Shown: positions 19,700-51,902 of the stretch, piece by piece
How positions within the stretch are numbered: position 1 is the stretch's first letter
Layout of the letters: each line of letters opens with the position of its first letter
Source: Candidatus Saccharimonadota bacterium
GTDB lineage: Bacteria; Patescibacteriota; Saccharimonadia; Saccharimonadales; Saccharimonadaceae
Reading direction: 5' to 3'
NCBI GenBank assembly: GCA_017652105.1
Contig: JAGCBP010000012.1
Span: forward strand, 1-64,000
Length of the DNA: 64,000 bases
Notes under the pieces: model-generated
Told to the model about the DNA's origin: nothing
The model's input: only the letters and a program-made list of their open reading frames with translations
Databases searched by the model: none
Made by a program: the position numbers and the translations under genes

Positions 19700-20659
19700 T
19701 CACACCCAGAACTCTTTTGGAAGTTCGTCGGCTATCCGTTGATGGAACTCGTAGTCAAAGCCTTCTAGCTTGTCCGGCGTAGAATCGCCAAAGTATTTAT
19801 CGCGGATGTATTTAGCGGTCATCGGTTTACCCGGAATCAATTTGTATTTTTTACGAATATTTAGGCCTCTCTTGTACCCTTTTGGTGGCAAAACCGCCAT
19901 CGGCAAGAAATCACAGTTCATTTCAGGATCTTTGTACAGTCTCAGGGCCAACAGCGACATAGTCGGAATTATAGGCTCCGTGCCCTCATATACCTCCGGA
20001 GTTTTAAAGACTTTTGCCTGTCTTGTAGCTGACGGCGCTACAAAAATCACGCCACCGTTTTTGATAATTTCATGTGACAAATCGGTGTATATATCTCTAA
20101 ATTCATGTTTAATTCGATTCCCTGCATCATAAAGAAAAGTTCCTTTTTTTAGCTTCATCTTTTCCCAAGTAGCAGGTGTAATTGTCGGGGTGATGATAAT
20201 ACCAAGCATCTTGATCTTATCATAAAACGGCGCCAAAGCTTCGTACCATGGCAAATTTACCGGAAAAAGCATTGTCGAATCTCCCATCACGTCCGCTTTC
20301 ATCAACATAATCCGGCCAATCTCACCAAGAGATGGATGGTTAAAACCTACCACCAGACCATTTTTGGTATCTTTAGGGAAACCCTTATATTCCCCTGGAG
20401 CTATCTTGGATAAGCCCTTTACCATCTTTTTACGCGCATTTCTTGAGTGCTTTTCGTAGTTATTCTTTGGTCCAGTAGAATTAACAAAAAAATCTACTGC
20501 CATTTTGCAAACTTTACCTACCGGCACCATTTCTTTTCTAAGGTCCTCCGCCCCCAGCGTCCTAAGTAGCGAATAATTTTCGTAAATAATCTTTCGGTTG
20601 ATTTCACCGGCCGATAAAGTTTCTAACTGTTCTTTCGTAAATGTTTTTTTCTTAGCCAT
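19700..20659 (-). CDS. PlsC-like acyltransferase family protein
   Basis: 319 residues, soluble or peripheral. The segment GFNHPSLGE resembles the NHxxxxD catalytic motif of glycerophosphate acyltransferases with Glu in place of Asp. FVAPSATRQ matches the position of the FPEGTRS substrate motif. It may acylate glycerol-3-phosphate or lysophosphatidate, which would complete the GpsA-CdsA-PgsA route. The motifs deviate, so a different acyl transfer or loss of activity is possible. The start follows TATAAT by 9 nt. Confidence 0.55.
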   Translation of the reverse strand: MAKKKTFTKEQLETLSAGEINRKIIYENYSLLRTLGAEDLRKEMVPVGKVCKMAVDFFVNSTGPKNNYEKHSRNARKKMVKGLSKIAPGEYKGFPKDTKNGLVVGFNHPSLGEIGRIMLMKADVMGDSTMLFPVNLPWYEALAPFYDKIKMLGIIITPTITPATWEKMKLKKGTFLYDAGNRIKHEFRDIYTDLSHEIIKNGGVIFVAPSATRQAKVFKTPEVYEGTEPIIPTMSLLALRLYKDPEMNCDFLPMAVLPPKGYKRGLNIRKKYKLIPGKPMTAKYIRDKYFGDSTPDKLEGFDYEFHQRIADELPKEFWV

Positions 20660-20668
20660 ACTAAAACC

Positions 20669-20674
20669 ATTATA
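20669..20674 (-). promoter_or_regulatory. extended -10 promoter of the PlsC-like gene
   Basis: TGC-TATAAT on the minus strand, 9 nt before ATG 20659; divergent from tRNA-Gln. Confidence 0.55.
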
Positions 20675-20719
20675 GCATTTTTTAAGAAATTATGGTAAAA
20701 TATATAAAGACCATTATAC

Positions 20720-20794
20720 TGGGGTGTCGCCAAGTGGTAAGGCAACGGGTTCTGGTCCCGTCATTCGTGGGTTCGAGTCCTACCACCCCAGCCA
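20720..20794 (+). tRNA. tRNA-Gln (CTG anticodon)
   Basis: 75 nt with encoded CCA. Acceptor TGGGGTG pairs with CACCCCA; the anticodon loop TTCTGGT gives CTG; T loop is TTCGAGT. The U1-A72 start is normal for bacterial tRNA-Gln. A short T run follows. Confidence 0.96.
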
Positions 20795-20911
20795 TTTTTA
20801 TTGCCCTATTGCTTTTTTTATTAAAATATGATATAATAGAAAGATGGTCGCATTTTTAAAGCGATTAGTACTCTAAAATACGAATTTATTCTCATCAAGG
20901 GGGTGAAAATA

Positions 20912-21973
20912 TTGAGCAAATTCAAAAGGTTTATTCTATATTTTGGTATCGAGCCGGCCAATTACGAACTAGTAAAACCCAAAATCTACTGGGCAAACCT
21001 GTTCATTACGGCTTTTACTGCAATCTGTGCGACTGTGCTAATCACATCCATGTATATTTCCACCTATTTTGTTGAAGGAATAGCAGCAAACCGGCCAGTC
21101 TATCTGATGGGAGCCATCCTGTCTATCGTAGTGGTGATTTTAGCTCTATTCTATGGCAGAAAACATACCTGGATCGTAGTGCCACTTGTGTATTTAGCAG
21201 ATTTTATATACTTTACATATGGAATTTTGCTAGGGGTAGTTACCGATCCGGATCAAAAAACCGTTACATTTATTGTGATGCTAGTTTTCTTACCGGTACT
21301 ATTCATTGATCGGCCGATTCGTTGCGCCATCAATACATTGCTCTATATCATTATATTTATTTATCTCTGCTTCAAAACTAAAACAGGGGCAGTTTTACAA
21401 AATGATGTAATCGATGCGGCAGTATTCGGTACACTCGGTATAGTAAGTGGCATAATTATCAATCGTATGAAGGTCTACGGATATGTAATGGAATACAAAT
21501 TGCAAGAAGTAAGTCGGTATGACCAGCTTACTCAAATAAACAACCGGAATGCTTATGAGTTAACTTTGGCATCAATACCTGATTATGCAATCCATAATTT
21601 GTCTTGCATCTACATAGACGTTAATGGTCTACATGAATTAAATAATGAGGAAGGCCATGCATCTGGTGATGAAATGCTCAAATTTATTGCTGAGCAAATC
21701 AAGATGTATTTTGGCGAAGAATTAAGCTTCAGAATTGGTGGTGATGAATTTGTTACTTTTGTGGTAGATACTAGCAAAACTAAAGTCATTCAAGACTTAG
21801 ACGAGATGGTTGCAAATATCGAACAGGCCGGTTATCATGTGGCTACTGGCCTAGAAACCGTAGATGTTCACCGCCTCTCGATAGAAAATCTAATCAAAAC
21901 CGCCGAGAGTAGAATGTATCAAGACAAGAAACAATTTTACAAAAATCGTGCTAACGATCGTAGGAGAGAATAA
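20912..21973 (+). CDS. membrane diguanylate cyclase (GGDEF)
   Basis: 353 residues. Six membrane helices in the first 180 residues are followed by a GGDEF domain: YDQLTQINNRNAYE start, the IDVNGLHELNNEEGH nucleotide-binding segment, and an intact active site RIGGDEF. The usual RxxD inhibitory site five residues before GGDEF is absent. It should make c-di-GMP from GTP in response to a membrane signal. A TTG at 20912 fits the AAGGGGGTG ribosome site; a GTG at 20903 lies inside that site. It has an HD-GYP counterpart at 58765. Confidence 0.83.
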   Translation: MSKFKRFILYFGIEPANYELVKPKIYWANLFITAFTAICATVLITSMYISTYFVEGIAANRPVYLMGAILSIVVVILALFYGRKHTWIVVPLVYLADFIYFTYGILLGVVTDPDQKTVTFIVMLVFLPVLFIDRPIRCAINTLLYIIIFIYLCFKTKTGAVLQNDVIDAAVFGTLGIVSGIIINRMKVYGYVMEYKLQEVSRYDQLTQINNRNAYELTLASIPDYAIHNLSCIYIDVNGLHELNNEEGHASGDEMLKFIAEQIKMYFGEELSFRIGGDEFVTFVVDTSKTKVIQDLDEMVANIEQAGYHVATGLETVDVHRLSIENLIKTAESRMYQDKKQFYKNRANDRRRE

Positions 21974-21983
21974 ATTCGTATTC

Positions 21984-22012
21984 AAAATGGCTGCCAGAAG
22001 GCGGCCATTTTT
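21984..22012. terminator. bidirectional terminator
   Basis: AAAATGGCTGCC-agaa-GGCGGCCATTTTT between the convergent GGDEF gene and the histidine kinase gene. Confidence 0.85.
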
Positions 22013-22015
22013 CTG

Positions 22016-22945
22016 TCAAAATTCCAGTATAAAAGTGGTTAGTTTGTCGGATTTTACCATGAGCTTAAAATGATTTTTGTCGGCTATAGATTTTGCGATC
22101 GAAAGCCCTAACCCCACACCTTCGCTAGTTTTATCAGCTTGATAAAATCTATCAAAAATATGCGCCAGCTTATCTTTTGAAATCTTGGTGCCATCATTAG
22201 AAACTTCCAATCTGTGCTCACCTAAGGCTACAGAAATTTTTTTGTCAGAGTATTTTACTGCATTATCCATCAATATCGACAAAATCTGTTCAAAATCCGG
22301 CGCATTAATTTTTACATTTTTATCTAGAGTAATCTTTTTGGTTAAAGTTTTTTGTTTTAGTCTAGGTGAGAAACTATCCAATGTTTTTTCTAGTAAGTCA
22401 CCTAGATTGACCTCTGTGATCTGAGTGTCGGTCATCAAGTCCGTCCTTGCAAGAGTTAGTAGTTGGTTATTCAGATTGACTAATTTTTCGGTTTCTAACG
22501 CTACGTTCGATATCCATTTATTATTCGTGATATCCGCAGCCTCCAAATTTGCCGAAATTGCGGCAAGCGGTGTTTTAATCTCGTGTGAAGCATTGGCGAT
22601 AAAAACTTTTTGCGCATTATAAGCATCTTTTACTGGCTTAATGGCTTCCTCGGCCAAAAAATAGGATATCAAAACCACCACAATTTCTATCGCTATGCCA
22701 GAAACTATCAAAATAATCAAAAGTTCCCTTGCTGAGGCCTCTTTCTCTGCCCTAATCGCATCTCGCATGGTGTTCTCCCATTCATCCGAAAAAACCACAT
22801 CAGGTGGAGAATCCAAAAATTTCACCGGTCGGTTTTCTGCAGAACGCGTGGAAATTATATAAATAGTCGCAAAAACCACCACAATCACAAACGAAGTAAT
22901 CCCAAGGTTAATTAAAATCAATTTGTTGCGTAATCTTTTAAACAT
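22016..22945 (-). CDS. sensor histidine kinase
   Basis: 309 residues. Two membrane helices (about 10-32 and 72-96) flank a short extracytoplasmic segment of only about 40 residues. HisKA carries NASHEIKTPL with the phospho-accepting His near 121. The ATPase has N-box LMDNAVKYSD, G1 SNDG, F-box IFDRFY and G2 GVGLGLSIA. It begins directly after the stop of the response regulator gene (TAAATG), whose end supplies the GGAGGAA ribosome site. As the last gene of the VTC/DUF4956/beta-helix operon it probably senses envelope or polyphosphate state; the signal is unknown. Confidence 0.92.
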   Translation of the reverse strand: MFKRLRNKLILINLGITSFVIVVVFATIYIISTRSAENRPVKFLDSPPDVVFSDEWENTMRDAIRAEKEASARELLIILIVSGIAIEIVVVLISYFLAEEAIKPVKDAYNAQKVFIANASHEIKTPLAAISANLEAADITNNKWISNVALETEKLVNLNNQLLTLARTDLMTDTQITEVNLGDLLEKTLDSFSPRLKQKTLTKKITLDKNVKINAPDFEQILSILMDNAVKYSDKKISVALGEHRLEVSNDGTKISKDKLAHIFDRFYQADKTSEGVGLGLSIAKSIADKNHFKLMVKSDKLTTFILEF

Positions 22946-23605
22946 TTATTCCTCCACGAGTTTATAACCCAAACCTCGAATTGTTTTGATATTCACCTTT
23001 GAGCCGAGTTTTTTAAGTTTTTTCCTGAGATAACTCATATAGACTTCGGCGTAATTTTCATCATGCTCGGAATCAGCACCCCAAACGTGCGCCAAAATTT
23101 GTTCTTTGGTCATGGTGAGACCGGGATTTTTCATTAACATCATTAGAATTTCGCTTTCTTTGTCAGTCAGAGGCTCACCATTCAAAGTCCGATTGCAAAC
23201 ATCAAAAACCAAATCCCCAAACTTTAATTTTTCTACTTTAGCCATCGGCGGGCGGCGAGTGATGGCGTTAATCCGAGCAATTAGCTCGGCTGTCTTAAAT
23301 GGTTTGGCAAGATAGTCATCTGCACCGGTTTCTAGGCCTTTTATCTTATCCTCTACTTCATTCAAAGCCGAAAGCATAATTACCGGCGTTTTTATATCGC
23401 GTTTTCTGATAATTTCCAAAATTTCTAGCCCAGAAAGCCCCGGCAGCATAATATCTAGCACAATTGCATCATACCCCGGCTTCAAAGCCAACTTCAAGCC
23501 CTCATCACCATCGGCGGCCCAATCTACCATAATCTTATTGTTTTTGAGAACATGTATCACCGCTTCGGCCAAGAATTTTTCATCCTCTACGTATAGAATT
23601 CTCAT
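22946..23605 (-). CDS. OmpR/PhoB-family response regulator
   Basis: 219 residues. Receiver domain with acidic EDE near the start, phosphorylated Asp in VLDIMLPG (about 51), Thr/Ser switch IMLSA and Lys in LAKPFK. The winged-helix DNA-binding domain ends with VYMSYLRKKL and IRGLGYKL. The ATG overlaps the stop of the beta-helix gene by 4 nt (ATGA). It is the partner of the kinase immediately downstream. Confidence 0.95.
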   Translation of the reverse strand: MRILYVEDEKFLAEAVIHVLKNNKIMVDWAADGDEGLKLALKPGYDAIVLDIMLPGLSGLEILEIIRKRDIKTPVIMLSALNEVEDKIKGLETGADDYLAKPFKTAELIARINAITRRPPMAKVEKLKFGDLVFDVCNRTLNGEPLTDKESEILMMLMKNPGLTMTKEQILAHVWGADSEHDENYAEVYMSYLRKKLKKLGSKVNIKTIRGLGYKLVEE

Positions 23606-25182
23606 CTTTGCTCCCTTGGTCCACCATTCATATTCATATTCTGGAAGTTGCCAGCCCCATTTCCGACGGTGGTGGTGACGCTAGAAATCGTGAAAGTTTC
23701 GTATTTATTGCCATCCACATAGATTGTATAGCTTTCACCATTCTTAAACGCGCTAGTTCCCGCGGCTAAATGATTAAAAGTTTTAGCCGAAGTGTGTGCA
23801 AGAATCGTGTCCCCCGCGGAATTCTTAATTTCAATTTTGGTACCTTTAGCAAGGGTGGAGGTGAAATAAACACTGATATTATATATACTAGATGAAGAAC
23901 CTAAAGTTTCCGCCATTCCGCTAGCTCCCACAGCGATTACCGTGCCGCCATTCATTGTGATTCCGCCGCCAGAATCCAGAGCCCCATTACCATTGTTGGT
24001 TGGGCCATCAACTACTACTGTGCCACCATTGAAATACAGATACCCATTTGAGTCCACTCCATCTCCAGCCGCATTTATGTAGACTTCACCTCCGTTGATC
24101 GAAAGTTCGCAATTTTCATCAGTATCAAATGGGTTAGCGCCTGCTCGATTTTGCGATGAATTATCAGCCCCACCGCCAGTATTGATTCCATCATCATTTG
24201 AAAAAATCGAAATCTTGCCCGCGTTTATTGAAATTCTTTGCGCCTCTAGGCCCTCATATGATTTTGTAATTTCAATCTTCCCGCCGTCAATAATCAGTCG
24301 AGCATCAGCGTGAATTCCATCATCCCCAGATGAAATAGAAAAATCACCATCAACTATGCCAACATAATTATTTGAGTGTATAGCATCATCAGTAGAGTTG
24401 ATCACAAAATTACCACCATATATTAATATATTATTAATCGCTTTTAGTCCTTTTGCTTTGGCTATCAGGTTGAAGCTCCCATTTTCGATCAAAACAAAGC
24501 CTTTTGTAGTATTAGTATCGTTGGTAGATTTAATCGCATCACCGCTGGCGCTAATCATAAAAGAGGCATTCTCTACATGGACTGAATCTTTCCCTCTCAC
24601 TCCATCGTCAGTAGCCGTAATATTATAAGTCCCCTTCCTAAAGGTTAAATCATCCTTTGAGACAACACCATCTTGATAATTAGCCTTAATATCTAGCGTA
24701 CCATCACCAGAAAAGCTAAGGTCTGCTTTTGAATATATCGCACCATCAACATCCTCATCCCAATCAGAACTGTATCTGCTGCCATCTTCCAAATAGCTTT
24801 CGCCTACCAGTTCTATCACCAAATCATCGCCGGAAAGGCAAGCAATAGCTGGGCCGGTAGTATTTTTAATTGAAACATTGTCAAGGATTAGCCTTGCTAC
24901 TCCATCGTTTGCGAGTTTCACAATGATAGCACCATCAGAAATTTTACCGCTCAAATAATAAGTCCCTGATTCGGTAATAGTATAAGTTTCACCGAGCTCC
25001 ACATTATAGGATGAATAGCGTTCCCAATTGATTTTAGTGTCACCGTTGTCAATATCCACCGTACCCTCAATATTACGAGCATTGTCGCCGAGGTGAGAAT
25101 AATTCAAATTCAGTATCACCGCCACAATTAAAAGAACGATTAGAAACGCACCTCCCGCTATCCATCGCCAATTAAATTTCAT
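23602..25182 (-). CDS. exported beta-helix surface protein (DUF4353 / carbohydrate-binding-like)
   Basis: 526 residues. One N-terminal membrane helix (about 8-26), a beta-sandwich lead-in with YYLSGKISDGAIIV, and then about a dozen repeats with turns such as DDGV, DDAIH, DDGIH, DDGIN and GDGVDSNG, typical of a right-handed beta-helix of the DUF4353 family. The C-terminal domain holds TSAFKNGESYTIYVDG. It should be anchored and face outside. The family is known beside VTC and DUF4956 genes, sometimes with CotH kinases, but its ligand is not established. Acidic turns could bind Ca2+. It overlaps DUF4956 by 1 bp. Confidence 0.82.
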   Translation of the reverse strand: MKFNWRWIAGGAFLIVLLIVAVILNLNYSHLGDNARNIEGTVDIDNGDTKINWERYSSYNVELGETYTITESGTYYLSGKISDGAIIVKLANDGVARLILDNVSIKNTTGPAIACLSGDDLVIELVGESYLEDGSRYSSDWDEDVDGAIYSKADLSFSGDGTLDIKANYQDGVVSKDDLTFRKGTYNITATDDGVRGKDSVHVENASFMISASGDAIKSTNDTNTTKGFVLIENGSFNLIAKAKGLKAINNILIYGGNFVINSTDDAIHSNNYVGIVDGDFSISSGDDGIHADARLIIDGGKIEITKSYEGLEAQRISINAGKISIFSNDDGINTGGGADNSSQNRAGANPFDTDENCELSINGGEVYINAAGDGVDSNGYLYFNGGTVVVDGPTNNGNGALDSGGGITMNGGTVIAVGASGMAETLGSSSSIYNISVYFTSTLAKGTKIEIKNSAGDTILAHTSAKTFNHLAAGTSAFKNGESYTIYVDGNKYETFTISSVTTTVGNGAGNFQNMNMNGGPREQR

Positions 25183-25856
25183 TAAAGCTCCTCTTCCATG
25201 ACCGCTTGCGACAAAGAAACTTTGAGGTTGCAGTTCTTAGTCCTAATATCGTCCATCAAATCTTTTTCTTTGACGCCAGATCTTAGCTTTATATTATAAG
25301 TGAGATCATACATACTCCCCATGTTGATAGTTTTGGAAGAAATTAGCTCGGCATAGGCAGTGTATTTTTTGAATGTATCGGAAAAAATATCAGTATAGTC
25401 TAAATCTTCCGGTACGACAATTTTCAGAACGCGCTCTTTTTTGTCTGGTTCAAAGATTGGTAAGAAATTAAAGATCGCCATCGCTACTACACCTATCGCG
25501 GTCATCACTATACCAAACAGTACGTGACCCATACCGCAGGAGAGCCCAATCATCATAGCAAAGAAAATACTCAGAAGGTTCCTTGCGCTACCTCTGATCG
25601 AACGGAATCTAATCAAAGAAAAGGCGCCTAGAATAGCAATCGATGTCCCCAGATTTCCGTTTATCATAATCATTACCGCCATAGTAAGAAGCGGCAAGAC
25701 TACTAAAGTTATCAAAAAACCCTTGGTAGTGCATCTGGTAGTCAATTTATGTGCTATAGCTAGTAAAAGCCCCATACCCAGTGCCGCAGCGGCAGCAATT
25801 AATGCGGTGCTGATTTCAAGCCCAGCGGTTGATGAGTCGAATATACTATTAAACAT
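25182..25856 (-). CDS. DUF4956 membrane protein
   Basis: 224 residues. Four to five membrane helices in the first 140 residues, including the family hallmark GTSIAILGAFSLIRFRS, followed by a cytoplasmic alpha/beta domain (KIVVPEDLDYTDIF onward). DUF4956 is distantly like MgtC and habitually accompanies VTC-domain polymerases; it may help form a channel or membrane partner for the polymer. It overlaps the VTC gene by 8 bp and the beta-helix gene by 1 bp, so all are co-translated. Confidence 0.88.
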   Translation of the reverse strand: MFNSIFDSSTAGLEISTALIAAAAALGMGLLLAIAHKLTTRCTTKGFLITLVVLPLLTMAVMIMINGNLGTSIAILGAFSLIRFRSIRGSARNLLSIFFAMMIGLSCGMGHVLFGIVMTAIGVVAMAIFNFLPIFEPDKKERVLKIVVPEDLDYTDIFSDTFKKYTAYAELISSKTINMGSMYDLTYNIKLRSGVKEKDLMDDIRTKNCNLKVSLSQAVMEEEL

Positions 25857-26556
25857 TTGTCTCCTTTCTTATTTTTTCGTATATTTTACCAATCTTAGAA
25901 AAACGCTCTGGAAAAATTTTATTTTCCGACAAAAGATGGGTTAGCCACAATGGCATCCCCCCGCGCGCTTTAACTTCCATTATAATATTTCTTTTGTCGC
26001 TAAAATAATGTTTATCGTGGATAGTCCGTTTGAAATTTAAATCTTTATTTCTATAGCTCAAATTTTCATCAAAGGTGATCCTTAAATCGTCCTCACCAAC
26101 GTAACTTTTTCTACTATAATAAACTAGGATTTGCGGCTTCAAATCGAAGTAAGAAACCAAATAATCAACTTCTTTAGCAATTTGTCCACCCGCCAATTCC
26201 TCAGCTGTTTTTTCTCGCTTCAAAAACTTTTTAAATTGTTTATGAGTAAGTAGTACTCGCCGTTTATGTCCAATCCTAACATCTCTTTCTTTTTCCTTGG
26301 TTTTTATCTCTAAAAACACTCTATCAAAACCACTATATCCTCTTGCCCGGAATTTTTCTTTAAAATCCGGGTTCTCAATCGATTTAATAATTAAATCAAA
26401 GTTGTCAGTATCAAAATAAATGTTAAAAATTTCCGATTTAAAATATTTATCCTCTTTGGTATTTTTTTCGATTACATTTAGCAACTTTTTTCGAGTTGGC
26501 ACATCTATCAAATACTTCTTTTCGATTCGGTTAAATATTTCTTCGTGCATACTCAT
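25849..26556 (-). CDS. VTC-domain polyphosphate polymerase-like protein
   Basis: 235 residues with the full tunnel motif set of VTC/triphosphate-tunnel enzymes: RIEKKYL, IYFDT, KFRARGY, FLEIKTK, HKRRV, EVDYLV, YSRKSYV, LRITFDEN, IIMEVKA and SKIGK. In yeast VTC4 these basic and acidic residues bind ATP and Mn2+ and extend polyphosphate. Here it probably makes polyphosphate or another phosphate polymer at the inner membrane face. The AGGA upstream suits ATG 26556. It is the first of five overlapping genes ending in a two-component system; the beta-lactamase-like gene lies only 28 nt upstream. Confidence 0.87.
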   Translation of the reverse strand: MSMHEEIFNRIEKKYLIDVPTRKKLLNVIEKNTKEDKYFKSEIFNIYFDTDNFDLIIKSIENPDFKEKFRARGYSGFDRVFLEIKTKEKERDVRIGHKRRVLLTHKQFKKFLKREKTAEELAGGQIAKEVDYLVSYFDLKPQILVYYSRKSYVGEDDLRITFDENLSYRNKDLNFKRTIHDKHYFSDKRNIIMEVKARGGMPLWLTHLLSENKIFPERFSKIGKIYEKIRKETNV

Positions 26557-26584
26557 AATATAATCCTAAAACCTTAAAGAAACA

Positions 26585-27544
26585 TTAAATTTCGTCCTCA
26601 TAAAATTTATCTTCTAGCATTTTACCAAACTGGCGAATATTTTTAAAATCAACTTTATTAGTCATTACTACCACGATAAAATCCCTTGTTTTATCTTGCC
26701 AAGGAAACTTCACAATCGCTGCATCATGATAGATATTCCAGTATTTCCCTTCCGCATTGTAGGCCCAGCCTACCTTATTGTAGACAGATGCTTTTGAGAA
26801 ACCGCTAGGCAGTCCTTGGCGCCATTCATAAGTAGTGTTCGGCTGATTCAAGAACGAATCCCACATCGGATCGAGCAAAGTAGGATCATTAAAATCTGGA
26901 TGTTCATAAAAACGCTTCATTATTAGCATAATATCATTCACATTAGAAGTTAACTTGGAAATGTCCGAATCGGTAATTTTCCAATCTTTCTCAATAGTAT
27001 TATCTAAATTATCGTGTCCTATCATATTCCATAAAGTTTCTGCGCAAGGTGAATGAGACTCTCTAATTGCAAGATCCAAACATTTTGCAATCGTTTTACC
27101 AGTACTGCCCGCCTTGGCATTTGGATCCCATTTTTTATCATAAATTCGCTTATACCCTTCATATACCACAAATAGTTTATACAAAGAAGCAGTGTTGTAT
27201 TCTTCTTTTACATTATAAGAGCCCGCAACTTCATCTAAATCAAGATCGTAAATCAGAATGCTCTCGTTGCCTTTTACGGTTTTTATCCATTCATCAATTA
27301 CTGGTTGAAAATCAATCGGCTGGATAGTCTCTTCTGCAGGAGCAGGTTCTGCGGGGCCGTCTAAAGATTCCTCGGAATTTTCCTCATCAAGATTAGAAGT
27401 AATTGGCGACATATTAGAATTCATAAAGCTACAAACGACCAATGTAATCCCAAAACTAGCAATCCCTATTATAATAAATGTCGCAATTAGGGATACCCAA
27501 AATCTAGATCGCCTAGACACTCTTCTGTTTTTTACCACACCCAT
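26585..27544 (-). CDS. exported class A beta-lactamase-like serine hydrolase
   Basis: 319 residues. A basic start and one membrane helix (about 14-37), a Pro/Glu-rich linker (PAEPAPAEET), then a serine beta-lactamase fold. The SxxK motif is ASLYK, the SDN position reads SPC, and the KTG position reads KVG. With these substitutions it is more likely a peptidoglycan- or peptide-acting hydrolase, or a binding protein, than a resistance enzyme. The ATG at 27544 follows TATAAT by 9 nt. It may be co-transcribed with the VTC operon. Confidence 0.72.
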   Translation of the reverse strand: MGVVKNRRVSRRSRFWVSLIATFIIIGIASFGITLVVCSFMNSNMSPITSNLDEENSEESLDGPAEPAPAEETIQPIDFQPVIDEWIKTVKGNESILIYDLDLDEVAGSYNVKEEYNTASLYKLFVVYEGYKRIYDKKWDPNAKAGSTGKTIAKCLDLAIRESHSPCAETLWNMIGHDNLDNTIEKDWKITDSDISKLTSNVNDIMLIMKRFYEHPDFNDPTLLDPMWDSFLNQPNTTYEWRQGLPSGFSKASVYNKVGWAYNAEGKYWNIYHDAAIVKFPWQDKTRDFIVVVMTNKVDFKNIRQFGKMLEDKFYEDEI

Positions 27545-27553
27545 ATATAATAT

Positions 27554-27559
27554 ATTATA
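27554..27559 (-). promoter_or_regulatory. -10 promoter of the beta-lactamase-like gene
   Basis: TATAAT on the minus strand, 9 nt before ATG 27544. It may also drive the VTC operon, because no terminator lies between. Confidence 0.55.
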
Positions 27560-27570
27560 CACCTAGATCG

Positions 27571-28536
27571 CTAAAAATTAGAAAAATATTGCGACCAATG
27601 AGTGCGATATTTTGTGTTCGGATCGAAATAAAAACCTACTGCCAGTCTAGTGTAGTTAGGGTTTAGAATGTTTTCCCGGTGCTTCTCAGAGTTCATCCAA
27701 GCTGCTACTGCTGTTTCTGGAGATACTGCTGAGTTTCCAGCTACTAAATTTTCTCCCTCCGTGTAGGCTAGGTAGTTGTCGTCAGGTTCCATGCATGCGG
27801 TGTCCCACGAAGTACCATCAGGTCTAGTGTGAGCATAAAGTTGCACGATCTCTTCCGCTCTAACCTCTGCCGCATCAGCACAAGTTTCACCCCAAGTTAG
27901 CTTTGAGAGCCCATTTCTTACCCGCTCTTGATTGACTAAAGATAGTACCTCATATTTCCACTTGTCTGTCGGGACTTCAAGCACTATTACATCAATGCTA
28001 TCCCTCCGAGTACCGTCATAAGTACCAGCCGTAACCGTAGTCTTGCCTACTCCATTGACGACCGGAAACCTACAAGTATCCGACGAATAGCCTAGCCAAG
28101 TCCTAGCCGAAGTATAAAAACCAGAAATTACATCAGTATTGCTAGTTTGCCAATACATTGGCCCTAGATCTCTTAAATCTCCACCTACACAAATATCCAC
28201 ATTGGCCGTTTGGTAAATATAAATCGAATCACCTGCCCAAAGTTCACCATCAGGCACCGGCTCAGAGCTCATTCCCTCATTGGTATGTACAGAAGTGACA
28301 TAATTTTTTTGTGCTTCAGTCAACTCCACGCTAGAATTACTCTCAGCATCAATCAGGTTGGTTTGATCCACTGAGCCATCTATATCGTCAGAACGCTCAC
28401 CCACCACCTTAAAATCTAACCCGCCTTTCAGCCAAATCGCCCCAGCAATCAAAACTCCAGCCACCAAAATTGCCGCCGCATTCACGGACAAGAGAATTGT
28501 CATTTTTGTCTGCTTAAGACTTGCAGCAGCAGCCAT
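27571..28536 (-). CDS. exported CAP-domain (SCP/PR1, YkwD-like) protein
   Basis: 321 residues. One N-terminal membrane helix (about 13-36), an Ig-like/BIg2-style middle with SNTDVISGFY and GKTTVTAGTYDG, and a C-terminal CAP domain: LVNQERVRNGL, the first His in YAHTRPDGTSW, GENLVAG, and SEKHRENIL. CAP proteins bind lipids or act on surfaces; bacterial roles are mostly unknown. GGAGGT lies 10 nt before the ATG. It stands in a cluster of exported envelope proteins. Confidence 0.85.
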   Translation of the reverse strand: MAAAASLKQTKMTILLSVNAAAILVAGVLIAGAIWLKGGLDFKVVGERSDDIDGSVDQTNLIDAESNSSVELTEAQKNYVTSVHTNEGMSSEPVPDGELWAGDSIYIYQTANVDICVGGDLRDLGPMYWQTSNTDVISGFYTSARTWLGYSSDTCRFPVVNGVGKTTVTAGTYDGTRRDSIDVIVLEVPTDKWKYEVLSLVNQERVRNGLSKLTWGETCADAAEVRAEEIVQLYAHTRPDGTSWDTACMEPDDNYLAYTEGENLVAGNSAVSPETAVAAWMNSEKHRENILNPNYTRLAVGFYFDPNTKYRTHWSQYFSNF

Positions 28537-28594
28537 TCGATCTGTTTACCTCCATTTAGATAATTATAACACAACCATTTAAAATCTAAAAGAC

Positions 28595-30088
28595 TTACGG
28601 CTTAACTTTTACCAATCGATCGATCCACCAGGCGAGTGTGTCGGCATCAAGTAGCTTAGTCTGCATATCTTTACCATAAACCGTACCCACTAGCTTAGTT
28701 TGAAGGAGTTTACCATTATAGAAATAGTGGGCCAACACCAGGCTTCTCGTCGTGCCTGGCCAATCGGTTTGATCAAAGAATAGATTTCCGAGACCATAAT
28801 ATATTACACCATCGCCATAGAGTTCAAAAGTTTGCGCTTGGTGGGCGCTAGTACCTACTACTATGTCTGCACCGAGATCGATCAGATGTCTAAAGAATCC
28901 CACTTGATCGCCAGCAGCAGAATTGGCTCTGTCGCAAATTGGATCCTCATAGGTAGAAGCATAGGCATTACATTCATAATATTGAACATCTACGATCACC
29001 AAATCACCACGCGCTTTAGCATCTCTAATCTGCTCAGCAGCTACCGCTTCATAGTATTGATTTGCTCCAGGCGTATTGTCCAATGTCGCACCGCCGGTTG
29101 ATTGGTTAAACGCTAGCATCGTGATGCCAGTGCCTTTTTGTGATATTTCGAGTGGCTTTTTGGCCTCCTCTGCGGTTTTCCCGCCACCTACAATCTTGAT
29201 ACCGTTTTCATTGTAAATATCAATCGTATCTAAAGCGGCTTGGTCTCCACAATCTTGATTGTGGTTGCCGGTTAGTTCTACTACATCTAGCCCGATTGCG
29301 GTCAAGGTATCAATAAATCTAGTGTCTGAGCAGATATTTGCACCCGAAGCATATTTAGTGAAAGAAGACTCGTTGGAAGTATGCGTAATATCAAAAGCCG
29401 ACAAAAACGGACCAATTTCCTCGGCGAAATAAGTTGCATCACCGCCTACTTGGTTTAATCTAGTATTCATCCTCCGAGAAAGTGCCGTCACACCAGTTTG
29501 AGCAAAAGTTAGAACTGTATCTTTAGCTGGAAATTCTTTAATGAAAGCTTTTGCCACTAGCGGTTCTATTTCGTCTTCAAACTTTTCCGAATTAAATTCA
29601 ATCGTCCGAAATACTACGCCTGTATCAAATTCATCTAGATAATACTTTCCGTTGATTGAAAGTAATTTTTTGGAAAAATCCAGTTCCGACAAAGGAATTA
29701 GCTGAAAATCGTTAGCGGCCTTAAAATTCTCGTCGAATAACTCTTCGACTGTATCTACATCGATATTAGTTTTTGAACTATAGAAATCCGTAACCGGTAC
29801 TAAAATTTCATACAAATATTCATTATGTTTTTTGGCTGGTTTTTCCAAAGTATATTTTGCGTCAATTTTTACATCTTTATCCAGATCAACTTCCTTAGTG
29901 AAAATCCCATTCAGCGTCTCCAGTTCGGCCGAATTTAGTGAGTCAGCATAATATACGACCCCCGGAATTCTAAAAATTCCAGTTTTAGTGAAAAATTGCA
30001 CCCCAAAAAATACCCCCACAAAAACTATCGCAAATGCTATAACTATCGCAATAACTTTACCAACTTTTTTCTTCCTCCTACTCTTCAT
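28595..30088 (-). CDS. CapA-family membrane-anchored metallophosphatase-like protein
   Basis: 497 residues. A very basic N-terminus (KSRRKKKVGK) and one membrane helix, then an accessory domain, then the CapA/PGA-synthesis fold: ELTGNHNQDCG, VVDVQYYECN, GADIVVGTSAHQAQ and YYGLGNLFFDQ. CapA helps anchor or export poly-gamma-glutamate in Bacillus; in other bacteria it acts in capsule or wall metabolism. No other cap genes are nearby, so poly-glutamate itself is doubtful. TAAAAT lies 6 nt before the ATG. Confidence 0.82.
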   Translation of the reverse strand: MKSRRKKKVGKVIAIVIAFAIVFVGVFFGVQFFTKTGIFRIPGVVYYADSLNSAELETLNGIFTKEVDLDKDVKIDAKYTLEKPAKKHNEYLYEILVPVTDFYSSKTNIDVDTVEELFDENFKAANDFQLIPLSELDFSKKLLSINGKYYLDEFDTGVVFRTIEFNSEKFEDEIEPLVAKAFIKEFPAKDTVLTFAQTGVTALSRRMNTRLNQVGGDATYFAEEIGPFLSAFDITHTSNESSFTKYASGANICSDTRFIDTLTAIGLDVVELTGNHNQDCGDQAALDTIDIYNENGIKIVGGGKTAEEAKKPLEISQKGTGITMLAFNQSTGGATLDNTPGANQYYEAVAAEQIRDAKARGDLVIVDVQYYECNAYASTYEDPICDRANSAAGDQVGFFRHLIDLGADIVVGTSAHQAQTFELYGDGVIYYGLGNLFFDQTDWPGTTRSLVLAHYFYNGKLLQTKLVGTVYGKDMQTKLLDADTLAWWIDRLVKVKP

Positions 30089-32134: not shown

Positions 32135-32626
32135 GTGGAGCTACGACGAAGGTGGAATTTTTGTAAGATTTTTAGCCTAATTTATGTGCTAGCTTTTTCT
32201 GTCTATATAATTGTAGGCTTACAGCCAGCCGAAGCTCACGAATATACTATTTCTGGCAATCTAAATATCCCTAGTATTGGTTTAGTTTCGGATGTCACTA
32301 ATCTCACTCTAGAAAATCACAAATTAAATACTCCCGACACTATTGTCGGCAGTTATACTAGACATCTCGGCAAGACATTACTCATCGGCCATTCTACCAC
32401 TGTATTCAAAAATCTAGAAAACATTTCGATCGGTGACACCATTAATTACAATGATCAAAACTACCGGGTGATCAACATAGAGAAAATAGCCAAATCAAAT
32501 ATAGATATGGACAAGATTTTGTCTCGCGAAAAAGAAAACACTCTTATTGTCATGACCTGTGCCGGGACAATTCTTGATAATGGCGATGCTTCGCATCGCT
32601 TCATCGTTACGGCTACCGAGATTTAA
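32135..32626 (+). CDS. sortase
   Basis: 163 residues. One N-terminal membrane helix (about 13-32), then a short sortase barrel: catalytic His in LLIGHSTT, Cys in VMTCAG, and Arg in SHRFIVT. The small size and motifs resemble class D/E housekeeping sortases. It should cleave a C-terminal sorting signal and attach proteins to the wall or to each other. No protein in the window ends with an obvious LPxTG-type signal. The GTG start follows AAAGGAGG. It overlaps the convergent GH97 gene by 14 bp. Confidence 0.85.
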   Translation: MELRRRWNFCKIFSLIYVLAFSVYIIVGLQPAEAHEYTISGNLNIPSIGLVSDVTNLTLENHKLNTPDTIVGSYTRHLGKTLLIGHSTTVFKNLENISIGDTINYNDQNYRVINIEKIAKSNIDMDKILSREKENTLIVMTCAGTILDNGDASHRFIVTATEI

Positions 32627-34574
32627 CCAGTCGAATCGCGAATCCACCTCCTGGCGCCATATATATATCAAAAGCGTCGCTTTTCCCTACATGTTTGACT
32701 GCTATTTCAATTCCGTAAGGGTTGTCACGATAATGTGTATCCGAAGCGTCAGTATATAGGTATGCCGCATAGGCGCCTTCATCCAAAAAATCTAGATTTA
32801 CATGCACAGTTCGACCATTTTCATCAGTTACACCGCCAATATACCAATCATGAGAATCTCGGTCTTTTCTGGCTACTACATAAAAATCCCCGATTTCGCC
32901 AAGCAAAGGCACTGTTTTTTCGAAATTTGTCGGCACCGCTTTGATAAATTCAAACACTTCCGGAAATTTTTCTTCATAGACGGAAGGTCTATCGGCCGCC
33001 ATTGCCATCCCAGAGTATATAGTTACAAAATACGCTATCTGGCGAGCCAAGGTCGTCGAAATCCGCTTAACCGAGTTAGTAATATCAAAAATTCCGTTAG
33101 TATAATCCATTCCACCGGCCAGAAGTCTTGTGAAAGGCAAATAGCAAGCATGCGAAGGTCTGAGAGCCCCGCCTTCATATTCTTGCCCTCTAGCCCCTTC
33201 ACGGGTAAGCAAATTCGGCCAAGTCCGTTCAATTCCAGTCCCCTTAATCGGCTCGTGAATGTCTAGACAAATCTTTTTACGTGCCGCCAATTCTACCGTT
33301 CTTTGATAATGATTTACCCCAGCTTGCGAATGATGAAATTCTTTTTGGCCATTAATGACGATTTTGCTTCCAGCGTAGCCAGTCTTAATGTAATGTATTC
33401 CATTTGCAGCATAATAATTGTAGGCGTCCTCCAGTTGATTTTCATAATTATCTACAAACCCCACCGTTTCATGGTGCCCAACCAGTTCAATATTTTTTGC
33501 TCTCGCATAACTCGCCACATTTACTAAATCAAAATCTGGTGTAGAAGTTGTAAATTTATTGTTTACGCCATTTTCTAGCCAATCACCTTCCCAACCTTCG
33601 TTCCAGCCTTCAATCAGGAGCCCTTTAATGCCCAGGCGTACTGCCGCATCGATGTATTCTCTAGCATGCTCAGTCGTAGCCCCGTGTCTTTCCCCCGGCG
33701 CCCAAGTCCATTCACCCACATACATCGCCCACCAAATCCCGATAAATTTAAGCGTAGAAACCCAGCTAAAATCACCTGCTGGCGGCTCATTCAAGCAATA
33801 CATGATTCGGTTGGTGGTCAGCTCAATCGCTGAGCCAGCAATCATGATTAAACGCCATGGGGTCTGAAACGGTAATTTTATATGCGCTTTGGTCCCATCC
33901 GAGAGAGGTGTAATGTCGGATTTGAGTGCTAAACTCTCATCTAGCTTCAAAGTCATTCCACCGTAATCATAAAGCGCCGCCTCATGAATCGAAAGATAAA
34001 ACCCGTTGGGTGTTTTGATTGTGAGTGGCGTATGCACAGATTCTTCAAGTTCCTGCAGGACTTTGTGCTCGTAATTATATTCATATCTGTCTGGTTGATA
34101 AGCTGGAATTTGCCAAACTGAGGAATTTAAATCTATATTAAATTCACTGATTTCATCCTTAATAGCAATAGCTTCAAATTTTGGTTGTGGTGGAATTTCG
34201 TATCGAAAGGCCACACCAGTATTAAATACTCGAAAACGAATCGTAAACAGGCGATGCTCTTTCCCATCTTCAGCAAGATAAAACACGCCTTCGGTGTAAG
34301 TGTTGTCGATAAATCTATCTTCTCCCCAAAGCATCTCAATTGTCTCTGAATGTTTGAAAAATCTGGTTCGTACCAATTTTAACTTATCATGCAAAGGCTC
34401 TTCGCCAGAAATCTCAAAATCCAACCGAGATTTTTTGATAATTGGCTTGTCATCTCTAGTCACAGTGTAAAAAACTTGACTATTTTTCAAAAAAAGTTGG
34501 ACGTTAGTTCGAGAATCAGGCGACAAAATAGACTTAACTGCATTGTCTTTTTTGTGACGCACCCACCAAGTCAT
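32613..34574 (-). CDS. GH97 family alpha-glucosidase (SusB-like)
   Basis: 653 residues in the GH97 layout: an N-terminal beta-sandwich with FRVFNTGVAFRYEIP, a TIM barrel with LLIEGWNEGWEGDW and GHHETVG, and the hallmark WPNLLTREGARGQEYEG followed by LPFTRLLAGGMDYTNG. It hydrolyses terminal alpha-linked glucose. No signal peptide is present, unlike periplasmic Bacteroides SusB, so it should act inside the cell. ATG 34574 has TATAAT 6 nt upstream. It belongs with the GT4, GH57 and phosphorylase genes. Confidence 0.9.
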   Translation of the reverse strand: MTWWVRHKKDNAVKSILSPDSRTNVQLFLKNSQVFYTVTRDDKPIIKKSRLDFEISGEEPLHDKLKLVRTRFFKHSETIEMLWGEDRFIDNTYTEGVFYLAEDGKEHRLFTIRFRVFNTGVAFRYEIPPQPKFEAIAIKDEISEFNIDLNSSVWQIPAYQPDRYEYNYEHKVLQELEESVHTPLTIKTPNGFYLSIHEAALYDYGGMTLKLDESLALKSDITPLSDGTKAHIKLPFQTPWRLIMIAGSAIELTTNRIMYCLNEPPAGDFSWVSTLKFIGIWWAMYVGEWTWAPGERHGATTEHAREYIDAAVRLGIKGLLIEGWNEGWEGDWLENGVNNKFTTSTPDFDLVNVASYARAKNIELVGHHETVGFVDNYENQLEDAYNYYAANGIHYIKTGYAGSKIVINGQKEFHHSQAGVNHYQRTVELAARKKICLDIHEPIKGTGIERTWPNLLTREGARGQEYEGGALRPSHACYLPFTRLLAGGMDYTNGIFDITNSVKRISTTLARQIAYFVTIYSGMAMAADRPSVYEEKFPEVFEFIKAVPTNFEKTVPLLGEIGDFYVVARKDRDSHDWYIGGVTDENGRTVHVNLDFLDEGAYAAYLYTDASDTHYRDNPYGIEIAVKHVGKSDAFDIYMAPGGGFAIRLVKSR

Positions 34575-34580
34575 GCTTTT

Positions 34581-34586
34581 ATTATA
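34581..34586 (-). promoter_or_regulatory. extended -10 promoter of the GH97 gene
   Basis: TGT-TATAAT on the minus strand, 6 nt before ATG 34574; divergent from tRNA-Trp. Confidence 0.62.
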
Positions 34587-34617
34587 ACACAAATTATGCT
34601 AAAATATAACTACACCT

Positions 34618-35967: not shown

Positions 35968-35969
35968 AA

Positions 35970-49269: not shown

Positions 49270-49891
49270 CTTCTACGGTCGCGATTTTTATGTTGACCAA
49301 AATGTTCTCACTCCTCGCCCCGAAACCGAGCAACTGATTGATGAGGTCTTAAAACTCTGTGGCAAACCCATCCTTCCCGGTGTTAAACCTGAAAAGCCCA
49401 AACTAAACCCCAAAAAACTCAAAATCCTTGATGTCGGCACCGGCTCTGGCTGCATCGCGATTACTCTAAAAAAAGAATTGCCAGAAACTGAAATTTACGC
49501 CTCTGACATATCAGAGAAGGCCATCAAAATCGCTCAAAAAAACGCCAAAAACCTCGGCGCCTCTATAAATACCATTATATCATATCTGCTCAAAAATGTC
49601 AATATTACCCCTGATGTTATCGTGGCCAATCTGCCTTATGTCGACAAAAATTGGGATTGGCTCGACCGAGAATCTTTAAAAACAGATCCGAATCTTGCTC
49701 TCTACGCTGAAGATGGCGGTCTAGAGCTTATCAAAGAACTCATCAACACCGCCACCTCCAAATATTTGATATTAGAAGCCGACCCATCTCAGCACCAAGG
49801 AATTATCAACTACGCCAAGAAAAAATATAACCTTGTAAACTCACAAGGTTATATTCTAACTTTTATTTCTCTGAGTAGCCTTCCAGAGTGA
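49244..49891 (+). CDS. prmC: release factor glutamine methyltransferase, truncated N-terminus
   Basis: 215 residues. It begins almost at the conserved VLTPRPETE, so the N-terminal helical domain of about 75 residues found in other PrmC proteins is missing. The SAM site is [10 protein letters not shown]. The substrate motif, normally NPPY, reads NLPY. It should methylate Gln of the RF1 GGQ motif. Lack of the helical domain, which contacts RF1, may alter partner recognition. It overlaps htrA-like gene by 29 bp, convergently. Confidence 0.85.
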
Positions 49892-51050
49892 CATTCACCC
49901 CAATTTCGTTGCCATCCCTAACCACCGTAAGCTGCACTGTGTCACCTGGTTTGTATTCACCAATCAAAGTAGAAAGAGAACCCGCTGTACCAATTTTCAC
50001 CCCATTTACCGCAGTAATAATATCTTTGTCTTTGAGCCCCGCCTTAGCTGCCGGCGAATCTTTTTTAATCGCCGAATAGTTAGCCCCCGAAGCATAGAGA
50101 TAAGCCCCGGCAGTTACTGGCAAATTATAAGTCTTAGCCGAAAGCGGTGTTACTTCCAAAGTATATACGCCAAGATAAGCCCGCTCCGCCGTACCCTTCT
50201 CTTTTAGTTGAGAAAGCATACCCTTAGCCGCAGCGATCGGAATGGCAAAACCCATATTTTCTGCCGAAGAACTCGTAGCGGTATTGACACCAATTACTTG
50301 TCCCGCAGCGTTAATCAAAGGTCCGCCTGAATTCCCTGAATTAATCGCCGCATCAGTCTGAATCATATCTGTAAGATTTTCACTCATCGATCCGGTAGAA
50401 TCGGTCGCCGTAAGCGAACGCCCAGTCCCCGACACCACGCCAGATGTTACACTGTTTTGATATTCACCCAACGCATTGCCAATCGCCACTACCTGCTGCC
50501 CCACCGTAATGGTCTTAGAATCGCCCAAAGTCGCCGGAGTCAAGCCAGAGACATCTTTGATTTTTAGAAAAGCAATATCATTAAGCGAGTCCACCGCCGC
50601 CACCTCTACATCTTTAAAAGTAGTCCCGTCGTCCAGCACTACCGAAATACTAGTCGCTCCTTCAATCACGTGTTTATTGGTGAGAATATAGCCATCTTCA
50701 GTGACAATAATTCCGGTCCCCGCCGCACTAGAACTGTAGCTCTGCCCAAAATAGCTCACACTTTTAACTGAGGTTAAAATCGATACCACGCTTGGAGAAA
50801 GTTTGTCTACCACATCAGCAATCGAGCCCTCTACAAAATTCGCCGAATTACCGTCCGCACCACTATTTAAGAAGGTTAAAGGTTGCATCGACTTTTGAAA
50901 ACTCAGGACTGAGAACACACTCGAAGTTATAGCCGCAGCTAGCGCAACCGAAGCCAAAATTACCGCAGTTTTATTACCACCCCCATGCTTGCAGTTCTTA
51001 CACTTACAATTCTCGCATTTGCATTGTTTTGACTCTTCTTTTTTTGCCAT
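49863..51050 (-). CDS. HtrA/DegP-like serine protease with cysteine-rich N-tail
   Basis: 395 residues. A short tail with seven cysteines (QCKCENCKCKNCKHGG) lies before one membrane helix (about 28-50). The trypsin domain has the triad His in NKHVIE, Asp in NDIAFL and Ser in GNSGGPL. A PDZ domain follows (KDSPAAKAGLKDKDIITAV). It is a surface quality-control protease. The Cys-rich tail faces the cytoplasm and could bind Zn or Cu. AGGAGGT precedes the ATG; the gene follows 51063 by 12 nt. Confidence 0.9.
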   Translation of the reverse strand: MAKKEESKQCKCENCKCKNCKHGGGNKTAVILASVALAAAITSSVFSVLSFQKSMQPLTFLNSGADGNSANFVEGSIADVVDKLSPSVVSILTSVKSVSYFGQSYSSSAAGTGIIVTEDGYILTNKHVIEGATSISVVLDDGTTFKDVEVAAVDSLNDIAFLKIKDVSGLTPATLGDSKTITVGQQVVAIGNALGEYQNSVTSGVVSGTGRSLTATDSTGSMSENLTDMIQTDAAINSGNSGGPLINAAGQVIGVNTATSSSAENMGFAIPIAAAKGMLSQLKEKGTAERAYLGVYTLEVTPLSAKTYNLPVTAGAYLYASGANYSAIKKDSPAAKAGLKDKDIITAVNGVKIGTAGSLSTLIGEYKPGDTVQLTVVRDGNEIGVNVTLEGYSEK

Positions 51051-51062
51051 TTTTACCTCCTA

Positions 51063-51848
51063 TTAATAAATATTAAATGCCGGTTTGCTAAAGAAAAATA
51101 CAATGATTCCAATCAGCACCACGCCAAATATAATTGGCCCCACAATATCTTTAAATCGAAAATCCTCTCGATATCGCACCATCGCTTGCCTGGCGTAACT
51201 ATAAACAAAAGCAAAAATCGTCAAAATTATTGCCGCCTGCGGAATCTTGATTCCAGTATCTCCAAAAGTATAAATAATCCCCCAGGCATGGCACAGCCAC
51301 GCAATTTCCGAAAATACTAACCCGCAAACCAAGGTCGTAAGTGCAAAATTTTCCTCTTCTGTCTGCACTAAAACATGCCGGCTAGCCGCATAGCCAATCA
51401 AAAATGCCAGAAGCACACCCACAATTGGGTCCAATGTCGCTGACATAATCGAAGAAGCGGAAATCCCCAAAAACACCGCAATCAAAGATTGTGCAAGGTT
51501 GGCTCTCTCTGTAGATAGCGGCTTAATAAATAGCAACCATGCAATATATACCGCCATCAAAACAAAATCCACTAATATCAAAGAACTACCGGAATAATAA
51601 GTTAGCATCACGATCGAAAGCCCCACAATAATATCAATCAAGTTTGATTTAATATTAATCAAAAGATAGCGACTTCTCACCGCAAATACTCGCCATTTCG
51701 AAACCAAAACTAGGACGATCCCCAGCGCCGGGTTCGCACTAAACACTGTAATTAGCACCGCACCCATCCCCAAGAGAATATTCAGAAGCACGTGTACAGC
51801 GCTCGATGCAATATTTCTAGACTTTCTTGCTAATACATAGTCTGCCAT
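51063..51848 (-). CDS. multi-pass membrane protein of unknown function
   Basis: 261 residues with about eight membrane helices, no clear motif. Charged loops are short and a Lys/Arg-rich patch (RKSRNIA) starts the protein. TATAAT lies 8 nt before the ATG. Probably co-transcribed with the HtrA-like gene, but their connection is unknown. Confidence 0.65.
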   Translation of the reverse strand: MADYVLARKSRNIASSAVHVLLNILLGMGAVLITVFSANPALGIVLVLVSKWRVFAVRSRYLLINIKSNLIDIIVGLSIVMLTYYSGSSLILVDFVLMAVYIAWLLFIKPLSTERANLAQSLIAVFLGISASSIMSATLDPIVGVLLAFLIGYAASRHVLVQTEEENFALTTLVCGLVFSEIAWLCHAWGIIYTFGDTGIKIPQAAIILTIFAFVYSYARQAMVRYREDFRFKDIVGPIIFGVVLIGIIVFFFSKPAFNIY

Positions 51849-51862: not shown

Positions 51863-51902
51863 ACAGAAAAATTAAACAAAGCTTAAAAAATACTTTTTGT
51901 GC

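Follow-up and report, generated by a model that had tools for sequence, protein, structure and literature searches.

Predicted CiaR-type regulation of a VTC-DUF4956-Cthe_2159 operon in a gut-type Saccharibacterium

The window analysed here, a stretch of 64,000 nucleotides from contig JAGCBP010000012.1 of a Candidatus Saccharimonadota bacterium (genome of 668 kb in 21 contigs, 96% complete), carries on its minus strand five consecutive genes encoding a VTC enzyme, a DUF4956 membrane protein, an exported Cthe_2159 beta-helix protein, an OmpR-type response regulator and a histidine kinase. We propose that these genes probably form one autoregulated operon of the CiaRH family, which would make a polyphosphate-like polymer and export it at the cell surface. 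The regulatory part of this proposal is the firmest: judging from the sequences of this genome and its relatives, the VTC operon is very probably under CiaR-type control.

Organization of the five-gene operon

All five open reading frames (ORFs) were found at the coordinates given by the initial annotation, and the distances that it had reported agree exactly: VTC and DUF4956 overlap by 8 bp, DUF4956 and Cthe_2159 by 1 bp, Cthe_2159 and the regulator gene by 4 bp, while the regulator and kinase genes abut (0 bp). The family identities assigned there are likewise those given by Pfam, with matches exceeding the cut-off for every protein. The first gene (25849..26556, 235 aa; Pfam VTC 1.2e-32) encodes a polyphosphate-polymerase-like tunnel enzyme, and the second (25182..25856; Pfam DUF4956, E 9e-13) a membrane protein similar to MgtC and YhiD. 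The third (23602..25182; PF14262, 4.4e-73) encodes a right-handed beta-helix protein, predicted to be exported and to possess one N-terminal membrane helix from its hydrophobic stretch. The partner genes are a surface or polymer set, as previously suspected. They are followed by the regulator gene (22946..23605; Pfam Response_reg and Trans_reg_C), assigned to the CiaR clade by trees and by its recognition helix, and by the kinase gene (22016..22945; Pfam HisKA and HATPase_c), whose product has two membrane helices according to alignment and hydropathy.

A hairpin read by eye (AAAATGGCCGCC...GGCAGCCATTTT) lies 3' of the kinase stop at 21983..22011 (minus strand) and is probably a terminator common to the kinase gene and to the GGDEF diguanylate cyclase gene (20903-21973) that converges on it.

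A CiaR-type box at the VTC promoter

In streptococci the CiaR site is established as TTTAAG-N5-TTTAAG, located 10 nt from the -10 element (PMC3091779), and this repeat is also bound by a CiaR homologue from Bacillus (PMC4938410). In the window a putative box of this type, TTTAATGTTTCTTTAAG, with 11 of the 12 consensus bases, is present in the VTC promoter at 26573..26589 (minus strand), and 10 nt past it there is a predicted -10 element, TATATT (26557..26562, minus strand), a geometry that is the same in most relatives. The spacing from this element puts +1 at 26550, which is the second in-frame ATG of VTC, giving a leaderless start that is found also in relatives. Because of this promoter geometry we moved the VTC start, which is probably 26550 (233 aa) and not 26556. 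More generally, Saccharibacterial promoters look leaderless, with TATAAT, about six bases and then ATG (window 26557-26589 and the VTC promoters of relatives).

Boxes matching at least 10 of the 12 consensus bases occur upstream of VTC in 17 of the 21 Saccharibacterial loci with a linked regulator (6% in shuffled sequences) and in 12 of the 14 linked clostridial loci (12% in shuffles); when the regulator is unlinked, the proportions are 35% and 22%, respectively. If the correct -10 spacing is also required, such boxes are found at 21/53 VTC promoters and 19/34 regulator promoters against 4/695 other genes (Fisher p 1e-22 for VTC promoters versus other genes). When counted over the entire window with up to two mismatches, the motif by itself is no more frequent than in shuffles; the signal is carried by promoter position. 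With a threshold of at least 9 bases out of 12, a box is present in 16 of 20 VTC promoters from genomes possessing a CiaR-like regulator and in none of the 5 from near-complete genomes without it (p 0.002, a value that ignores relatedness); a perfect VTC box occurs in one 83%-complete genome in which no regulator was detected. At the VTC promoters of Streptococcus infantis the match to the CiaR box is weak.

Since the regulator gene overlaps the gene preceding it, the VTC promoter must drive the regulator as well, barring an internal promoter, and the operon would thus be autoregulated. The self-regulation suggested by the initial annotation is supported by the family's own box at the VTC promoter and by gene overlaps, which leave the regulator without a gap that could hold a promoter of its own.

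The htrA operon as a second predicted target

A second CiaR-type box, TTTAAGCTTTGTTTAAT, with one mismatch, was identified in the window at 51871..51887 (minus strand), in the promoter of an operon whose two genes, on the same strand, would belong to the predicted regulon. The first (51063..51848) encodes a 261-aa membrane protein without a Pfam family and the second (49863..51050) an HtrA-like trypsin/PDZ protease (Trypsin_2 2.1e-33, PDZ_2 2e-15). Of 7 genomes, 6 keep the box in front of the orthologous operon, and among 414 promoters few others reach its score. In streptococci htrA is a member of the CiaRH regulon (PMC4938410).

Regulator and kinase

The window genome gives three response-regulator matches, but the other two are open frames of 136 and 124 aa, and the regulator studied here is consequently the only one long enough for a DNA-binding domain. 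A tree that included 63 OmpR-type regulators from four genomes of the Lachnospirales (the order of the genome of locus L044, labelled Lachnospiraceae bacterium) grouped all the Saccharibacterial regulators, linked or not, with 13 VTC-linked clostridial regulators in one clade (support 100/99). Only one unlinked clostridial regulator falls inside it (L243, adjoining transposase and ferredoxin genes). The same clade contains an S. infantis regulator (L279), which we take to be CiaR from its arrangement and sequence, its gene standing before that of a 444-aa kinase and after a pepN-like ORF. The recognition helix of the window regulator reads YAEVYMSYLRKKL, and that of CiaR is VVEVYVSKVRKKL (PMC3091779). 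The linked regulators of the genus group into a single 16-member clade (88/98), so that the shift from a divergent to a downstream position would be a rearrangement inside that clade.

The kinase has 309 aa, with about 40-45 residues between its two predicted membrane helices, in agreement with the very short sensor loop already noticed, and no HAMP domain was found in it. By alignment, the clostridial kinases have 410-440 aa, of which 110-140 form an extracytoplasmic domain. In the Saccharibacterial kinases about 35-45 of these residues are left, and the N-terminal motif MFKKLRNK is shared with the clostridial proteins. On this evidence the window kinase is a truncated relative of the clostridial proteins from which most of the extracytoplasmic domain has been lost, and it illustrates the shrinkage of such systems. 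As the large domain is missing, we classify the pair as a CiaRH-family regulator with a truncated kinase, and not as CiaRH proper. The kinase may sense its signal inside the membrane, or a partner protein may relay it.

Gene order in the genus, the phylum and the Lachnospirales

The genus survey comprised 40 loci from a DNA scan plus stretches from further genomes; the close relatives of the window genome are gut and rumen Saccharibacteria. Across the surveyed loci the order VTC-DUF4956-Cthe_2159 is nearly constant, and because nearly all relatives retain it this part of the operon is not due to chance. A DUF4956 homologue is present in 97 of the 147 genus genomes. Linkage was counted over 66 loci or genomes whose DUF4956 reaches 58% identity or more. 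In 24 of them regulator and module are linked, the regulator being upstream and divergent in 19, downstream and co-directional in 3 (the window included) and upstream and co-directional in 2; it lies elsewhere in 20 and was not found in 22. Two diverged VTC clusters (L100 and L101) independently show the order VTC-DUF4956-Cthe_2159-regulator-kinase. In this genus VTC-DUF4956-Cthe_2159 is thus the constant core and the two-component pair is optional. The initial annotation had regarded a regulator pair located elsewhere in related genomes, together with an overlap confined to one strain, as damaging to its view; the former is found in 20 of the genomes just counted, and the five-gene order occurs in 3 only. 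At one locus (L072 7751-8441, genome G093) VTC is split into two frames and apparently decaying. The most constant fourth neighbour in the genus is a MacB/FtsX-type ABC transporter, an ABC-FtsX fusion of about 1030 aa (L015 12393-15473 and orthologues).

In the phylum VTC is patchy (28/380 genomes). It adjoins DUF4956 in most of the loci fetched, and no two-component system was seen in any of those fetched from beyond the genus; CotH or CotH-beta-helix fusions are among the partners examined. Examples of CotH fused to a right-handed beta-helix and adjoining VTC-DUF4956 are L128 5351-7795 and L132 5122-7821.

Concerning the Lachnospirales, VTC is present in 64 of 116 genomes, and an OmpR-type regulator lies at most four genes from the VTC module in 24 of the 56 loci scored, against a chance expectation of about 4% from the regulator density of four genomes of the order (p about 2e-18). 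Regulators are most frequent in the gene positions immediately bordering the operon, and none is counted farther than four or five genes away; in 14 of the 56 loci the nearby regulator resembles the Saccharibacterial one. Partners at these loci are CotH (26) and Cthe_2159 (18), and at one locus, L175, the five genes stand in exactly the same order as in the window. Given this recurrence, the idea that the two-component link is special to a reduced genome finds no support; the candidate explanation that it is unique to the window genome is ruled out by its recurrence both in the genus and in the Lachnospirales.

The VTC enzyme and its partners

The window VTC matches PF09359 with 113.9 bits (curated cut-off 23), and the family profile matches yeast Vtc4 at 4.5e-28. 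Its AlphaFold2 (AF2) model (pLDDT 94) has Vtc4 as best match in PDB (3g3r, Foldseek 3.6e-15, TM 0.76), compared with a TM of about 0.4-0.56 for other tunnel enzymes. Over 63 sequences K68, R70, R72, E83, K85, K98, R149, D163, E194 and K196 are invariant. The tunnel residues of Vtc4 include K200, R264, R266, K281, K294, R361 and R373; K14, R70, R72, K85, K98, R149 and R159 of the window protein align with these and are conserved in the same set. Towards the C-terminus E194 is invariant and K221 nearly so, in a region where the residue alignment ends before E426 and K458 of Vtc4. On balance these data favour slightly a polyphosphate-like polymer as the product.

The AF2 model of DUF4956 (pLDDT 84) contains five membrane helices and a C-terminal ACT-like domain, residues 138-222 giving ACT-like structure matches. 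Comparison with E. coli YhiD (hhalign E 7.6e-6, probability 84, with a single-sequence template) covers both the membrane motif and the ACT-like domain, and by this alignment DUF4956 is MgtC-like. Against PDB only the C-terminal ACT-like domain was matched, in a comparison that barely covered the membrane part. In yeast, the VTC complex couples polyphosphate synthesis to translocation (PMC9911596), and by analogy DUF4956 might couple the two steps here; export of the polymer through DUF4956 is conceivable, although we would not put its chances at even. The Cthe_2159 protein matches PDB 4peu/4phb at 3.1e-21, and proteins of this family bind cellulose and acid sugars (PMC6712302).

From these elements the following mechanism can be hypothesized. 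An envelope signal would be sensed at the membrane by the truncated kinase, which retains little of the extracytoplasmic domain and would phosphorylate the CiaR-like regulator. The latter would bind the TTTAAG-N5-TTTAAG box, separated by 10 nt from the VTC -10 element, and presumably activate VTC, DUF4956 and Cthe_2159 together with its own gene and that of the kinase, with the htrA operon as a second target. VTC would then polymerise phosphate from a nucleotide in its tunnel at the cytoplasmic face, the MgtC-like DUF4956 may anchor VTC and conduct the chain across the membrane, and the polyanionic product may be retained on the cell surface by the exported beta-helix protein.

Evaluation of alternative explanations

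Several results weigh against this proposal. The motif was scored partly in sequences where boxes were first spotted; a motif-free repeat test was therefore run, and direct repeats with a period of 11, and of that period alone, were clearly enriched at VTC promoters (60% vs 32%). Several linked promoters are without a good box (L104, L179). At the htrA box of the window the spacing to TATAAT is only 8 nt (TAATAT lies at 10), and one 100% complete genome (G001) keeps the box at htrA (L286 15098) with no CiaR-like regulator detected. To these must be added the genus genomes where the regulator lies elsewhere or was not found, and the other VTC-linked clostridial regulators, which fall in different OmpR subfamilies, so that regulators were recruited more than once. 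As for the enzyme, the conserved tunnel residues are compatible with other tunnel enzymes too, and the papers searched yielded no experiment in which a bacterial VTC had been assayed together with DUF4956.

One alternative survives best, although we consider it unlikely: regulation would be as proposed, but VTC would be another tunnel-type phosphotransferase or hydrolase, making no free polyphosphate. It would, for example, load phosphate onto the beta-helix protein or a glycan at the surface, or release it, and DUF4956 would be a regulator and not a channel. MgtC-family proteins are not known to act as polymer channels. The fold is common to CYTH cyclases and triphosphatases, most loci have a CotH-type kinase or a carbohydrate-binding beta-helix protein as partner, and the group is tied to Pel polysaccharide clusters in Gram-positives (PMC7112168). 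However, Vtc4 is by far the closest protein in fold and sequence, and the unvarying association with a single membrane protein recalls the yeast complex, in which synthesis and translocation are coupled (PMC9911596).

It is improbable that the pair mainly serves the MacB/FtsX-type transporter, in Bce-type peptide sensing with the VTC operon as one downstream effector. The transporter, besides being the most constant fourth neighbour, is often directly 3' of the kinase, whose loop is very small as in intramembrane-sensing kinases; yet no transporter gene carries the box, and the window genome keeps operon and kinase while the transporter is missing from it (best partial match 44%), for which reason this partnership is ranked as a rival only. 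More improbable still is an independent, movable CiaRH-like system adjacent to VTC by read-through with no functional link, as the pair's unrelated contexts in many relatives (the queuosine/tRNA-synthetase region and others) and the regulators of 20 genomes without DUF4956 might suggest, given that the linkage is repeated in two phyla, that among clostridial regulators the clade is almost confined to VTC-linked members, and that the VTC-promoter box tracks regulator presence even if unlinked.

Relation to known systems

The autoregulated CiaRH-family operon that we favour shares with streptococcal CiaRH, and with Bacillus BAS0540-BAS0541, the regulator clade, the recognition helix and the direct-repeat box with its 10-nt spacing to the -10 element; it is predicted to resemble them also in autoregulation and possibly in the control of htrA. 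It differs from CiaRH in that the pair is embedded in a VTC-DUF4956-Cthe_2159 operon and in the kinase, whose extracytoplasmic domain is mostly gone and which is shorter than CiaH (444 aa).

Accessory groups of CotH, polymerase and DUF4956 in Gram-positive Pel clusters have already been described (PMC7112168). Like them, the window has a VTC-type enzyme beside DUF4956 and an exported partner, but Cthe_2159 takes the place of CotH and the operon has its own two-component system. No CotH was found by Pfam among the ten ORFs scanned at 19700-30088, nor any Pel family among the operon neighbours examined (PGA_cap, CAP, beta-lactamase-like, GGDEF), the rest of the genome not having been searched for Pel. 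With the eukaryotic VTC complex (Vtc4/Vtc3/Vtc1) the system has in common the fold of the tunnel domain, its conserved N-terminal tunnel residues and the association of an enzyme domain with a membrane component; in contrast, the window VTC is without an SPX domain, and its membrane partner is unrelated and MgtC-like. The MgtC/SapB/YhiD proteins are similar to DUF4956 in the membrane motif around GAxSxIRFR and in the C-terminal ACT-like domain, but DUF4956 has a Pfam family of its own and, in the examined loci, almost always forms a pair with VTC.

Bacterial VTC-DUF4956 pairs are widespread, and no role was found assigned to them in the literature searched. Searches on the VTC domain with DUF4956 and on CiaRH with Saccharibacteria gave no match, and no link of CiaR to VTC-DUF4956 came up in the papers searched. 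We advance tentatively, as a possibility that we rate below even, that CiaR-type regulators across Firmicutes and Saccharibacteria are dedicated switches of a VTC-DUF4956 machine making a polyphosphate-like polymer and exporting it to the cell surface under envelope stress. Through the CiaR link the inducing context can be predicted (envelope stress, htrA), and a testable promoter and cultivable relatives in the Lachnospirales become available. If the proposal is true, a gut-type Saccharibacterium devotes to a surface-polymer module the sole one of its three response regulators with the length for an output domain, and in an epibiont this would mean a regulated surface polymer used in host contact.

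Neighbouring genes

The initial annotation correctly placed the end of the beta-lactamase-like gene (PF13354) 28 nt upstream of VTC, but the suggested membership of this gene in the system does not hold: it has no box, lies on the opposite strand in most relatives and has its own TATAAT-like sequence at its start, so that it was ruled out as part of the operon. The PGA_cap, CAP-domain and beta-lactamase-like genes (window 26585-30088) are regular neighbours of the module, in varying orientation and without a box. The GGDEF protein and an HD_5 (HD-GYP-like) protein (58765-60054) could form a cyclic-di-GMP circuit in this small genome. Finally, a GH97 glycosidase (32613-34592) and a glycosyltransferase beside a GH57 enzyme (34747-37166) suggest alpha-glucan metabolism nearby.

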